This document shows positions 650 to 6,639 of a stretch of 64,000 nt of DNA, one piece after another. Location of the stretch: assembly GCF_022695595.1 (NCBI RefSeq), contig NZ_CP074380.1, positions 7,840,501 through 7,904,500 of the forward strand. Reading direction: 5' to 3'. The notes below the pieces were generated by a model that searched no databases, was not told the origin of the DNA, and was given only the letters and a program-made list of their open reading frames with translations. Made by a program: the position numbers and the translations under genes. The stretch is from Streptomyces sp. MST-110588. Lineage in GTDB: Bacteria; Actinomycetota; Actinomycetes; Streptomycetales; Streptomycetaceae. How positions within the stretch are numbered: position 1 is the stretch's first letter; the number at the start of each line of letters is the position of its first letter.

Positions 650-1080
650 GCCCCCATCGTCCGGCGACACCGACCCCGGCCACCCGACACTTCCCGTACC
701 GTCTTCGTCGGGTGCGCACCGAGCCCTCTCTGCTCCGACGATCCTCGATGTCGTGCAGGAAGACGTCTGCGACCTGCGATAGTCCAGATCATGGAATTGC
801 TGGACACGATGATCACGGGCGAGGACTGTGCGTGCGCGGATCAGCCCCGTACGGCGAGCGGTACGGCAACAAAGCAGTGGCCATGGCTCGTCGATGTGCA
901 CGGCGAGCTCCGTGGAGGGATGCGCTGCCCACAGGGAGCCTATGTGACGGTTCACTTACCCAATACGCCGTACGGGTGGTTAGGGCGCGATTTCCCGGGA
1001 TTCGGCATCTTTTCGACAGCAGGTGGTCCAGGAAGTGGCATACATGCCTGTGATCACTGATGGAGAGGAGGTGACGACCC
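650..1080. other. Intergenic region upstream of the precursor peptide
   Basis: This stretch separates the leftward dioxygenase gene from the rightward peptide gene and should hold both promoters. A frame starting with ATG at 791 (MELLDTMITGEDCACADQ...) has no ribosome site and ends in poor coding sequence, so I do not call it. The only firm element is the strong GGAGAGGAGG ribosome site just before 1081. Confidence 0.4.
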
Positions 1081-1176
1081 ATGCGCAAGGTCGCGATGAA
1101 CGCTCAAGCGGCGGTCCGGAAAGACCGCCGTCCCGGGTACTACATCTACAAGTTCCAAGGGGGCCCGGTGAAGTGA
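1081..1176 (+). CDS. Candidate RiPP precursor peptide (31 aa)
   Basis: The ATG at 1081 follows a near-ideal ribosome site (GGAGAGGAGG, 10 bases upstream), unusual for a spurious short frame. The peptide has a basic N-terminal half (MRKVAMNAQAAVRKDRRPG) and an aromatic C-terminus, YYIYKFQGGPVK, with Tyr20, Tyr21, Tyr23 and Phe25. A SagB-type dehydrogenase and a cytochrome P450 follow on the same strand. Established P450-modified RiPP families (biarylitides, cittilins, atropopeptides) pair very short Tyr/Trp-rich precursors with one P450 that cross-links the aromatic side chains. By analogy I infer a leader of about 19 residues and a core in the last 12. No sequence match to a named family could be confirmed. 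Confidence 0.62.
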   Translation: MRKVAMNAQAAVRKDRRPGYYIYKFQGGPVK

Positions 1177-1190
1177 GTCCGGTGAAGTGA
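1163..1190 (+). repeat. 14-bp tandem duplication at the end of the precursor gene
   Basis: The last codons and stop of the peptide gene (gcccggtgaagtga, 1163-1176) are repeated at once as gtccggtgaagtga (1177-1190) with one mismatch. The second copy lies outside the reading frame. Confidence 0.8.
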
Positions 1191-1291
1191 GCCCCTGGGG
1201 CGGGCGGCAGCCGCACCCATGCGGGGAGACCGCAGGTCAGGCGCCGGTCGCCCCTCCCTCCCTGCCCCGGTCCGCAATCGCTGGAGTCGCC

Positions 1292-2488
1292 GTGCGTTAC
1301 CGCCGTTCCCGTTGTCTGACCTGCTACTGGCGCGACGGCCTGTTCATCGTCCACCCCTATCCCCACGGCACTCCCACCTCCCTGCATCCGGTGGCCGTCG
1401 AGGTCTGCTCCGCGTTCGAGGAATGGGCCGTGCCCGCCGAGGCCGCCAAGGTGCTCGACCACCTCACGCCCGAGACCGTCCAGGAGGCCGTGGCCGTCCT
1501 CACGGAGGCCGGGGTGCTGCTGGCCGAGGACAGCCCGGACGCCGACCGTGACGAGGAGATCGACCGCCACTGGGCCGCCTGGTCGCCCGAGGCGTCGTTC
1601 CTCCATTACGCCACGCAGAACGACTACCTCGAATCGCCCTATACGCGCGACACCCTAGACACACCCAATATGCCCGATGCGCCCGATACCCGGGTCAACG
1701 ACGAGGACCCCGACGCGGCGCCGGACGCGACCCGGCTGCCGCCGCTGTTCACCGGCTACCCGGACGCCCCGCGGCTGCCGCTGCCCCGCTCCCGTGCCGG
1801 CCTGCACGCTCCGTACGAGCAGGTGCTCCACAGCCGTCGTACGCACCGTGACTTCAGCCCGGCCCCCGTGTCGATGACGGCTCTGGCCACCTTGCTCTCC
1901 ACGGTCTTCGGCCCGGTGGACTTCATCGACAGCGGCCACGGGGCGCTCTACCGCCGCACCAGCCCCTCCGGCGGCTCCCGACAGGAGCTCGACGCCTACG
2001 TCGGCGCGCTCAACGTCACCGGCCTCGCCCCTGGCTGGTACCACTACAACTGCCTGGAACACTCCCTGGAGCTGCGCACCGAGGGTCTGCTCCGCGAAGA
2101 GGCCGCGCACCTGTGCGCGGATCAGGACTGGGCCGGTGACACCGCCTTCCTCGTGGTCCTCGCCGCCCGGCTGGAGCGGATGAGCGTGAAGTACCGCACT
2201 CCCCGTTGCTACCGCGTATGCCTGCTCAACGCCGGGCACCTGGGGCAGACCTTCGCGCTGACCGCCACCGCGCTGGGCCTCGGACCGGCCCAGACCGGTG
2301 CTTTCCACGACGCTCTGATCGCCGAGCGGTGCCTCCTGGACAACACCGGGCACACACCGCTGTACGTCTTGGGCGCCGGTCACCCCAGCCCCTCCGCCCC
2401 CAACGAGCCGCCACCGGCCACCCTCACCGCCTTCACCCACACGCCTTTGCATGCGACCGGGCGACCACGACGCGACACGGCCGGCTGA
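1292..2488 (+). CDS. SagB-type (nitroreductase-fold) dehydrogenase
   Basis: A 398-aa protein of the SagB/ThcOx family, FMN-dependent oxidases that in RiPP pathways oxidise azolines or other residues of a modified peptide. I chose the GTG at 1292 because GGAG lies just upstream and family members begin at the same point (VRYRRSRCLTCYWRDG). The frame is open back to a GTG at 1187, but that stretch looks non-coding. Residues about 15-75 look like a small winged-helix, PqqD-like segment. The flavin domain follows, with 'HSRRTHRDF' (R182-R186), 'SPSGGSRQELDAYV', 'GWYHYN' and 'LLNAGHLGQTFALTATALGLG'. A low-complexity acidic linker lies near residues 105-145. It sits 115 bases after the precursor peptide and 150 before the P450 on the same strand, suggesting one pathway. 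Confidence 0.85.
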   Translation: MRYRRSRCLTCYWRDGLFIVHPYPHGTPTSLHPVAVEVCSAFEEWAVPAEAAKVLDHLTPETVQEAVAVLTEAGVLLAEDSPDADRDEEIDRHWAAWSPEASFLHYATQNDYLESPYTRDTLDTPNMPDAPDTRVNDEDPDAAPDATRLPPLFTGYPDAPRLPLPRSRAGLHAPYEQVLHSRRTHRDFSPAPVSMTALATLLSTVFGPVDFIDSGHGALYRRTSPSGGSRQELDAYVGALNVTGLAPGWYHYNCLEHSLELRTEGLLREEAAHLCADQDWAGDTAFLVVLAARLERMSVKYRTPRCYRVCLLNAGHLGQTFALTATALGLGPAQTGAFHDALIAERCLLDNTGHTPLYVLGAGHPSPSAPNEPPPATLTAFTHTPLHATGRPRRDTAG

Positions 2489-2638
2489 GCAGCCCGGAGG
2501 CCGAAGCGGTAACGGCAGCCGAAACGGCAGCCGAAGTCGAGGCCGGTGCCGAAGCCGAAGCCGGACGGGCCGTTCACGGCTGCAACCACTCCCACGCACG
2601 CTTCTACCGGCCCCCGCTCACCAGGAGGAGAACGCGCC

Positions 2639-3997
2639 ATGCCCCCCACTCCCGTGAGCCCCACCGGAATCGACGCCCCCGCCGCCCCCTTGTCCACAGC
2701 CCTCCCACCCTCCCTCCAGGACCTCATCGGCAAGCATCCCGGCGAGCCGAACGTGATGGACCCGGACCTGCTCGCCGACCCGTTCGGCGGCTATGGCCGA
2801 CTGCGCGAGCAGGGCCCCGTCCTCCGCGCACGCTTCATGGACGACACGCCCATCTGGCTCGTGACGCGCTTCGATGAGGTACGCGCCGTCCTGCGGGACC
2901 CGCGCTTCGTGAACAGCCCGTACTCGATTCCGGGCCACACCGGTCCGGATCCGCGCACCCGGCTCATGGAGCTGCTCGGCATCCCCGAGGAGCACACCGT
3001 CTACATCCTGGAGTCGCTCCTCACCAGCGACCCGCCGGACCACGCCCGGCTGCGCCGCCTGGTCTCCCGCGCCTTCACCGCGCCCCGGGTGCGCGACCTG
3101 CGGCCACGCGTCGAGGAGATCACCGACACACTGCTCGACGAACTGCCCGGACACGCCGACGAGAACCAAGTGGTCGACCTCATCGAGCACTTCGCCTACC
3201 CCCTGCCGATCACGGTCATCTGTGAACTGGTGGGCGTGCCCGAGGCGTACCGGCCGCGCTGGCGGAACTTCGGTTCCGACCTCGCCTCGCTGGACCCCCA
3301 GCGGATCGGGGTTTCCTTCCCGGTCATGATCGACCACATCCACGAGCTGATCGCCACCCGCCGTACGGAACCGCGGGACGACCTGATCAGCGCGCTCATC
3401 CGCGCCCAGGACGACGACGGTGGACGGCTCGGTGACACCGAGACGGTCACCTTGGTGATGACGCTCGTACTCGCCGGGCACGAGACCACCGCCCACCTCA
3501 TCGGCAACGGCACCGCCGCCCTGCTGGCCCACCCCGGCCAACTGCGGCTGCTCAAGGAGGACCGGGAGCTGCTGCCGCACGCCGTTCACGAACTGATGCG
3601 CCGGTGCGGCCCGGTCCAGATGACCCAACTGCGGTACGCCGCCGAGGACGTGGAGCTGGCCGGCACCCGGATCCGCCGGGGCGAGGCCGTCCAGCCCGTA
3701 CTCGTCTCCGCCAACCACGATCCGCGCCATTACGACGACCCCGAGCGCTTGGACCTGACCCGTCAGTCGGCGGGCCGCGGCGAGGACCACGTCGGCTTCG
3801 GGCACGGCACGCACTACTGCCTGGGCGCCGCACTCGCCCGCCAGGAGGGCGAGGTGGCCATCGGCCGCCTGCTGCGACGCTACCCGGATCTCTCCCTCGC
3901 CGTCGCCCCCGACCAGCTCAAATTCCAGGTACGCCGTCGCCAGCCGGGCGCCTGGCGCCTACTGAACCTCCCGCTGCGCCTGACGCGTACGGTCTGA
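2639..3997 (+). CDS. Cytochrome P450
   Basis: A 452-aa soluble bacterial class I P450, needing ferredoxin and ferredoxin reductase encoded elsewhere. The ATG at 2639 follows AGGAGGAG. Hallmarks are the I-helix oxygen-activation motif A279-G-H-E-T-T284, the K-helix ExxR at E318-R321 (HELMRR), and the haem loop 'FGHGTHYCLG' with Cys394 as thiolate ligand. The overall pattern (FVNSPYS, DPPDHARLRRLVSRAF) is that of actinobacterial biosynthetic P450s near the CYP107 group. It is downstream of the peptide and SagB genes, so an aromatic cross-link or hydroxylation on that peptide is the natural inference. The 150 bases before it are rich in GCCGAA repeats and hold no convincing gene. Confidence 0.95.
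   Translation: MPPTPVSPTGIDAPAAPLSTALPPSLQDLIGKHPGEPNVMDPDLLADPFGGYGRLREQGPVLRARFMDDTPIWLVTRFDEVRAVLRDPRFVNSPYSIPGHTGPDPRTRLMELLGIPEEHTVYILESLLTSDPPDHARLRRLVSRAFTAPRVRDLRPRVEEITDTLLDELPGHADENQVVDLIEHFAYPLPITVICELVGVPEAYRPRWRNFGSDLASLDPQRIGVSFPVMIDHIHELIATRRTEPRDDLISALIRAQDDDGGRLGDTETVTLVMTLVLAGHETTAHLIGNGTAALLAHPGQLRLLKEDRELLPHAVHELMRRCGPVQMTQLRYAAEDVELAGTRIRRGEAVQPVLVSANHDPRHYDDPERLDLTRQSAGRGEDHVGFGHGTHYCLGAALARQEGEVAIGRLLRRYPDLSLAVAPDQLKFQVRRRQPGAWRLLNLPLRLTRTV

Positions 3998-4992: not shown

Positions 4993-6639
<1,647 letters not shown>

Follow-up and report, generated by a model that had tools for sequence, protein, structure and literature searches.

We analysed a 64,000-nucleotide stretch (the window; G000:C1:7840501-7904500) of the 7.9-Mb single-contig genome of Streptomyces sp. 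MST-110588 and found a same-strand unit of three genes, encoding a 31-residue peptide, a SagB-type dehydrogenase and a cytochrome P450 (Table 1). We read this unit, with a probability of roughly 0.7, as a minimal operon for a ribosomally synthesised and post-translationally modified peptide (RiPP), whose class-defining enzyme is a stand-alone fusion of a RiPP recognition element (RRE) with SagB. This reading draws on computed gene content, conservation, purifying selection, a predicted RRE fold, YcaO absence and P450 orthology. The system of peptide plus RRE-SagB is real and conserved, and it is undescribed in the open literature searched: we found no open-access description of a YcaO-free SagB with tiny precursors, in line with the initial annotation of this DNA, which knew of no class pairing such a peptide with SagB.

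A short precursor gene conserved ahead of SagB

The initial annotation had singled out a tiny gene with an excellent ribosome site, and the 31-residue open reading frame (ORF) indeed carries a nine-base Shine-Dalgarno match, AGGAGGTGA. Over both strands of the window, three ATG-started ORFs of 20-45 residues have a Shine-Dalgarno match of at least seven bases, and two of nine, this ORF among them. Across the three loci that hold peptide, SagB and P450 (the window, L003 and L021), it is the sole conserved short ORF outside both enzyme genes, and its ratio of nonsynonymous to synonymous differences (pN/pS) of 0.29 indicates purifying selection; we therefore conclude that the peptide gene is real and not a chance ORF. 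Loss of the peptide from genomes that keep the SagB-P450 pair, or a competing conserved precursor, had been named beforehand as grounds for doubt; the peptide is present at all three pairs, and no competing short ORF or rival precursor is conserved there outside coding sequences.

The window peptide contains no Cys, Ser or Thr in any of its 31 residues, and its YYIY tail is common to the window and Streptomyces piniterrae, with YYIH in L021. The earlier comparison of its YIY with cittilin extends to a shared Y-x-Y/H motif and no further; no biarylitide-type pentapeptide gene is present. A likeness of the core to cittilin and the atropopeptides is possible. Computed unmodified [M+H]+ values are 3598.936 for the full peptide, 1519.794 for GYYIYKFQGGPVK and 1462.773 for YYIYKFQGGPVK.

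A SagB scan of genome contigs gave eight loci, in seven of which SagB was matched from its N-terminus; all seven have an upstream ORF of 28-31 residues with an MR start, R13, D15, R16 and an aromatic tail (YYIYK, HWQWRWRW, RYYIHEYK, RWHWRWEYK, RFFWVWQHS, PFFWIWHHS, PFVWWWSQS), and six have A8 and V12. M1, R2, R13 and R16 are invariant among 19 aligned peptides. A mechanical scan (ORF of 15-50 residues, Shine-Dalgarno match of at least five, within 300 nucleotides) detected such an upstream ORF at 45 of 57 SagB-family loci, compared to 23 of the 211 other genes taken from 15 of these loci. Inspection by eye removed four matches judged unlike the family (L040, L050, L051, L055) and added three with weaker Shine-Dalgarno sequences that the scan had missed (L003, L022, L042), giving a family-like peptide of 18-34 residues ahead of SagB at 44 of the 57 loci. 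L010, L033, L047 and L051, with a partial SagB or a contig end, were retained in this denominator, and peptide statistics rest on the 44 accepted peptides only.

Hosts of peptide-SagB loci include Streptomyces, Amycolatopsis, Halosaccharopolyspora, Actinopolyspora and genomes of other families. SagB relatives occurred in 10 of 394 family genomes (E<=1e-60), 18 of 392 genus genomes (E<=1e-40), 19 of 250 genomes of a second family, 3 of 251 of a third and 6 of 394 of the class, in samples that overlap and with only a few candidates scored per genome. The peptides comprise group A (window-like), IKIEQVEELRIIIEFRAA, RRKKTRSRLLNNHG, AKPVxARSIKIHYQR, DIVIIEDREVVAHHPS, ML(A/G)CKAS and other groups. 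In many, hydrophobic and polar residues alternate at the start (KIxIxAxPV), the pattern expected for a strand that would add to an RRE sheet, and the residues F, W, Y and H make up 97 of 528 in the last 12 positions versus 8 of 568 before them. In seven groups of 2-6 sequences, pN/pS was 0.29 (window trio), 0.05, 0.44, 1.03, 0.24, 0.29 and 0.49, falling below 0.5 in six of the seven; the 0.05 comes from tails of RRKKTRSRLLNNHG type. An NCBIfam scan of ten precursors returned only a sub-threshold LD_lanti_pre match, for the VLLHHPST peptide (12.4 versus 30 bits).

Near-identical tandem precursors, copies of MDIVIIEDREVVAHHPS[L/K], stand before SagB three times in L081 (G1387) and twice in L082 (G1232; wider flanks L095 and L096, respectively), with a JmjC_2 hydroxylase and a major facilitator superfamily (MFS) exporter downstream (by Pfam in L095, by clustering in L096). 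L054 and L055, whose genomes (about 3.5 Mb each) lack YcaO, carry a conserved 47-residue ORF (AQVLIEVVGDDTTISSAFS...YIDH[QR]PRPLS) ahead of a distant SagB (about 31% identical) and are perhaps an outlying branch of the peptide-SagB system.

A predicted RRE-SagB fusion without YcaO

SagB matches TIGR03605 (104.9 bits, cut-off 78.4) and PF00881, with a nitroreductase fold, and the gene after it matches PF00067, bearing out the initial annotation of a SagB-type dehydrogenase and a P450 downstream on the same strand. The SagB start was assigned to the GTG at 1292 in preference to the first in-frame one, at 1187. TIGR04511 (SagB_rel_DH_2, putative peptide maturation dehydrogenase) is matched by all 43 members of alignment A1 at E<=0.001, and the window SagB scores 141.5 bits to it, under the cut-off of 240. 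The SagB protein search yielded 237 matches, 120 of them listed, and 43 of these 120 entered the structure alignment. The conserved Lys300-Tyr301 we take to be the KY pair of SagB/McbC oxidases, and the best structural matches include ThcOx, BmdC and McbC, which are known azoline oxidases. No MNIO domain was found on SagB (PF00881 being its only Pfam match) or on the scanned neighbours, namely the P450, MerR, FAD monooxygenase, PhyH and methyltransferase proteins.

As VIA probes chiefly residues 158-389 when given the full model, the N-terminus was modelled alone: residues 1-97 gave a predicted local distance difference test score (pLDDT) of 92.5 and matched RREs in Foldseek and VIA, so that the SagB N-terminus is predicted to be an RRE, a leader-binding fold. 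This assignment rests on the fold, since a Pfam scan of the region gave only weak matches, many of helix-turn-helix type and most frequently MarR_2 (4 of 21 members, best E 0.0087). The RRE alignment has 21 rows, L025, L037, L070 and L043 of the first 25 having been left out.

YcaO (PF02624) was not found in the window genome, and it is also missing from 20 of the 52 SagB genomes in which it was sought (14 of one set of 39 and 6 of another of 13); these 52 genomes include those of all 44 peptide-bearing loci. Judged from coordinates, the nearest YcaO to any of these 44 loci lies 13.5 kb away (L084) and the next about 34 kb (L049); for L006 and L007, whose contig numbers were unmatched, any placement would be at least about 40 kb away. 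A YcaO stands directly beside SagB at G1451:C10 (L073, 318660-320875), where no tiny peptide was found and which possibly links azole-type systems to those without YcaO, and another lies 8.4 kb from SagB at G839:C84 (L047, contig end). Cys is missing from 40 of the 44 precursors. Because the window genome has no YcaO and the window peptide no Cys, Ser or Thr, azole chemistry in the window pathway is very unlikely.

The P450 and other variable neighbours

Reading 35 loci with longer flanks, some of them cut by contig ends, we observed a P450 gene directly after SagB in three, the window, L003 and L021, on the same strand each time; two further loci have P450 genes several kb away. The P450 is thus an add-on and not the class enzyme, and the P450/SagB pathway of the initial annotation survives in its peptide and SagB, the defining pair (44 of 57 loci), while the P450 loses its defining place. 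The three P450s are 85-88% identical to each other, compared to at most about 70% for the best P450s elsewhere, same-genome paralogue included, and these SagB-adjacent P450s form one clade (support 97/99). CYP107Z-like P450s at E<=1e-170 occur in 12 of 245 other genus genomes, and 13 other P450 loci showed no SagB in their short flanks. The genome also encodes a second CYP107Z-like P450 (G000:C1:1555561-1556853, minus strand), 68% identical and with no SagB in its short flank.

Other neighbours vary likewise. An MFS-type gene follows SagB in 7 of the 35 loci (L099, L102, L105 and L106 by Pfam; L100, L103 and L094 by clustering) and a JmjC_2/cupin enzyme in L028, L095 and L096 (Pfam for L028 and L095), most of the remaining loci sharing nothing after SagB; a methyltransferase is encoded ahead of the peptide in L097 and L102, as it is by clustering in L027, L099, L100 and L103. 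The core unit is peptide plus RRE-SagB, with P450, JmjC hydroxylase, methyltransferase and MFS exporter as variable neighbours. At L093 (G1260; SagB at C1:5852560, precursor KTRGKLLSNHAA), a siderophore-type periplasmic binding protein (Peripla_BP_2) lies downstream and an MFS gene upstream, and a metallophore link is possible there, also given His in the tails. In L091, an ATP-grasp protein with a weak LAL_C2 match is encoded 1,519 to 272 nucleotides upstream of SagB, on the same strand and before the precursor.

In the window, the precursor gene has a PhyH-family dioxygenase gene on the opposite strand as its left neighbour, 150 nucleotides separate SagB from the P450, and domain scans identified a MerR regulator and a flavin adenine dinucleotide (FAD) monooxygenase to the right of the P450. 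As previously noted from the sequence, no protease or transporter was seen among these neighbours (PhyH, MerR, FAD monooxygenase). The FAD monooxygenase (5206-6639, plus strand) matches the NCBIfam rifampin monooxygenase model NF033145 (858.4 bits, cut-off 800) and is likely a rox-type gene such as a soil Streptomyces may carry. The S-adenosylmethionine (SAM) methyltransferase gene (L029:13775-14533, minus strand) is the second gene to the left of the precursor, outside the window and in opposite orientation, and we found no evidence of its membership in the pathway. A 13-nucleotide direct repeat, CCGGTGAAGTGAG, occurs at 1165-1177 and 1179-1191, its first copy spanning the precursor-gene end, as if the 3' end of that gene had been duplicated. 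Rfam, promoter and terminator scans at the operon returned nothing of note; a single terminator-like site lies downstream of the P450 (4081-4093).

Table 1. Features of the peptide-SagB-P450 unit, in window positions.
Feature	Position	Strand	Basis or remark
Shine-Dalgarno AGGAGGTGA of precursor gene	1066..1074	+	9-base match
31-residue precursor peptide gene MRKVAMNAQAAVRKDRRPGYYIYKFQGGPVK	1081..1176 (ATG 1081, TGA 1176)	+	ORF reading; orthologues in L003, L021
Leader, residues 1-18, near M[RK]xIxIxAxxVVRxDRR	1081..1134	+	related-peptide pattern; boundary inferred
Putative core GYYIYKFQGGPVK	1135..1173	+	comparison with relatives; boundary inferred
Precursor-SagB spacer, 115 nucleotides	1177..1291	+	
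SagB-type FMN dehydrogenase, 398 residues, GTG start, GGAG ahead	1292..2488	+	TIGR03605, PF00881
RRE-like leader-binding domain (predicted), SagB residues 1-97	1292..1582	+	model pLDDT 92.5; Foldseek and VIA matches to RREs
Nitroreductase-fold catalytic domain, SagB residues ~161-389	1772..2458	+	domain and structure matches
Lys300-Tyr301 of SagB	2189..2194	+	each kept in at least 90% of 43 homologues
Shine-Dalgarno AGGAGGAG of P450 gene	2623..2630	+	read from sequence
Cytochrome P450, 452 residues, CYP107Z-like, ATG start, heme-loop FGHGTHYCLG	2639..3997	+	PF00067

Proposed pathway and alternative explanations

For the minimal RRE-SagB operon, we infer binding, reaction, order, cleavage, export and product as follows. 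The 31-residue precursor would be made from its strong ribosome site, and its N-terminal half, KVAMNAQAAVRKDRR, would bind as a strand to the winged-helix RRE of SagB; that the peptide is the SagB substrate we consider highly probable. The FMN domain would then take two hydrogens away from at least one residue in the aromatic tail, the likeliest reaction being alpha,beta-desaturation of Tyr, Trp, Phe, His or Ile-type residues to dehydroamino acids. We give desaturation an even chance, reasoning by analogy from one precedent, PflD, whose nitroreductase domain is reported to make Z-dehydrophenylalanine (PMC12636437). In the window clade, the CYP107Z-derived P450 may act next on Y-Y-I-[Y/H]-K by cross-linking of aromatic rings or hydroxylation, the cross-link being a tentative assignment with less than even odds. 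A YIY/YIH link is plausible by analogy, because biarylitide P450s join Y-x-H and, in some systems, Y-x-Y (PMC12951456, PMC13417212). A protease and an exporter encoded elsewhere would complete maturation.

Several observations weigh against this proposed chemistry. Thirteen of the 57 loci have no accepted peptide: SagB is partial in L010, L033 and L051, its N-terminus is unaligned in L079 and L083, L047 lies at a contig end, L073 is beside a YcaO and L054 and L055 carry the different 47-residue ORF, leaving L035, L040, L050 and L086 without explanation. Tails are so diverse (YYIYK, WNWTW, LLNNHG, HHPSL, IIIEFRAA) that a single reaction site common to them is hard to see, and three have neither an aromatic residue nor His in the last 12 positions; the group with pN/pS 1.03 comprises two sequences with few changes. 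Moreover, Ser, Thr or Cys occurs among the final 10 residues of 39 of the 44 tails, and composition by itself therefore rules out azoles only in the window and at a few further loci. The VIA Z scores of several RRE matches (LynD 6.8, ThcOx 6.9, PqqD 5.5) are not above those of unrelated folds, and in azole pathways an RRE that is fused to a dehydrogenase may be a vestige (PMC7470986). Finally, a GC hairpin between precursor and SagB reaches z < -2 in 34 of 43 relatives (L042, with a 2-nucleotide spacer, being left out, and the 'spacer' of L081 and L082 holding further precursor copies), but it is not significant in the window spacer (z -0.90), and 9 of 43 equal-length control stretches before the peptide also reach z < -2.

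The order of ORF, hairpin and enzyme in most loci, together with many tails rich in Tyr, Trp and His codons, would suit an attenuator leader peptide that senses charged Tyr, Trp or His tRNA and controls SagB transcription via the hairpin without being a substrate. Attenuators, however, need no conserved N-terminal half, whereas this half of the peptide is conserved across genera; tails such as RRKKTRSRLLNNHG keep their residues despite synonymous drift, the ORF is tandemly duplicated in L081 and L082, and for the predicted RRE fold of the enzyme no other substrate is evident. In addition, a scan found no terminator-like site or T-run terminator in window positions 1177-1291, and the sole Rfam match was at chance level (RF01529, on the opposite strand, 23 versus 50 bits), leaving attenuation quite improbable. 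We attach even less weight to a linear azole-containing peptide (LAP) or thiazole/oxazole-modified microcin (TOMM) pathway, with a YcaO acting from elsewhere in the genome and SagB oxidising azolines: azoline oxidases are among the best structural matches and many relatives' tails contain Ser or Thr, but the distribution of YcaO, the lack of Cys, Ser and Thr in the window peptide and the scarcity of Cys in the other precursors, all described above, speak against it.

Two further alternatives concern the P450. If the P450 defined a RiPP of the biarylitide or cittilin kind, SagB would merely be tailoring; the Y-I-Y/Y-I-H spacing does resemble the motif coupled by biarylitide P450s (PMC13417212, PMC12951456), and the P450 is co-inherited with SagB in a supported clade. 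Nevertheless, peptide and SagB persist without the P450 in most loci, the best solved relative of the window P450 is CYP107Z12, and no M[RK]Yx[HYW] pentapeptide gene lies near the three P450s, none of MRYxH type being present from -1500 to +4200 of the SagB start in the window, L003 or L021; we regard this explanation as improbable. Alternatively, the P450 could be an unrelated neighbour of a pathway consisting of peptide and SagB only, in agreement with CYP107Z-like P450s not being rare in the genus and lacking SagB in their short flanks. The single well-supported clade, its identity well above that of P450s elsewhere, and the position of the P450 directly after SagB, in the same orientation, at each of the three loci argue otherwise, and we judge a chance neighbour unlikely.

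The RRE-SagB system shares features with several known ones. SagB, McbC and ThcOx azoline oxidases of LAPs and cyanobactins have the same FMN dehydrogenase fold, RRE-like clamp domain and KY pair, but here there is no YcaO partner and the window precursor has no heterocyclisable residue. Biarylitides and cittilin have a very short precursor, a Y-x-Y/H motif and a P450 in common with the window unit, which differs in its longer leader, RRE-SagB core enzyme and optional CYP107Z-type P450. Cyclodipeptide oxidases (AlbA/B) act on a cyclodipeptide, whereas here the peptide is gene-encoded and has a leader. PflD likewise has a nitroreductase fold and acts on a ribosomal peptide in the absence of YcaO, but it is an MNIO fusion from a Pseudomonas host (PMC12636437), in contrast to the MNIO-free, RRE-fused enzyme with 18-34-residue precursors in actinobacteria. 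A putative Synechococcus azole RiPP cluster combines SagB-like and 'C450' genes, but it also has YcaO and LanB-like genes, is YcaO-dependent, has nine putative precursor genes and is predicted only (PMC10783134).

SagB enzymes are known as azoline oxidases serving a YcaO, whereas here a tiny precursor is the only constant partner. We consider it an evenly balanced prospect that these loci constitute a YcaO-free RRE-SagB class that would desaturate aromatic, His and branched residues of 18-34-residue precursors, with swappable neighbours elaborating the dehydroamino acids, by P450 cross-linking in the window clade, JmjC hydroxylation of HHPS precursors and methylation elsewhere; under that same balanced reading, the class would span many actinobacterial genera and have escaped annotation because its precursor genes are very short. 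If so, this would amount to a class of peptide-desaturating RiPP pathways, each with roughly one enzyme and easy to express and engineer, and the three-gene window version, with its added P450, gives a testable product mass. It would also help to answer what role YcaO-free nitroreductases play in RiPP clusters, enzymes that the PflD authors, in their 2025 preprint, call rare and functionally uncharacterised (PMC12636437).

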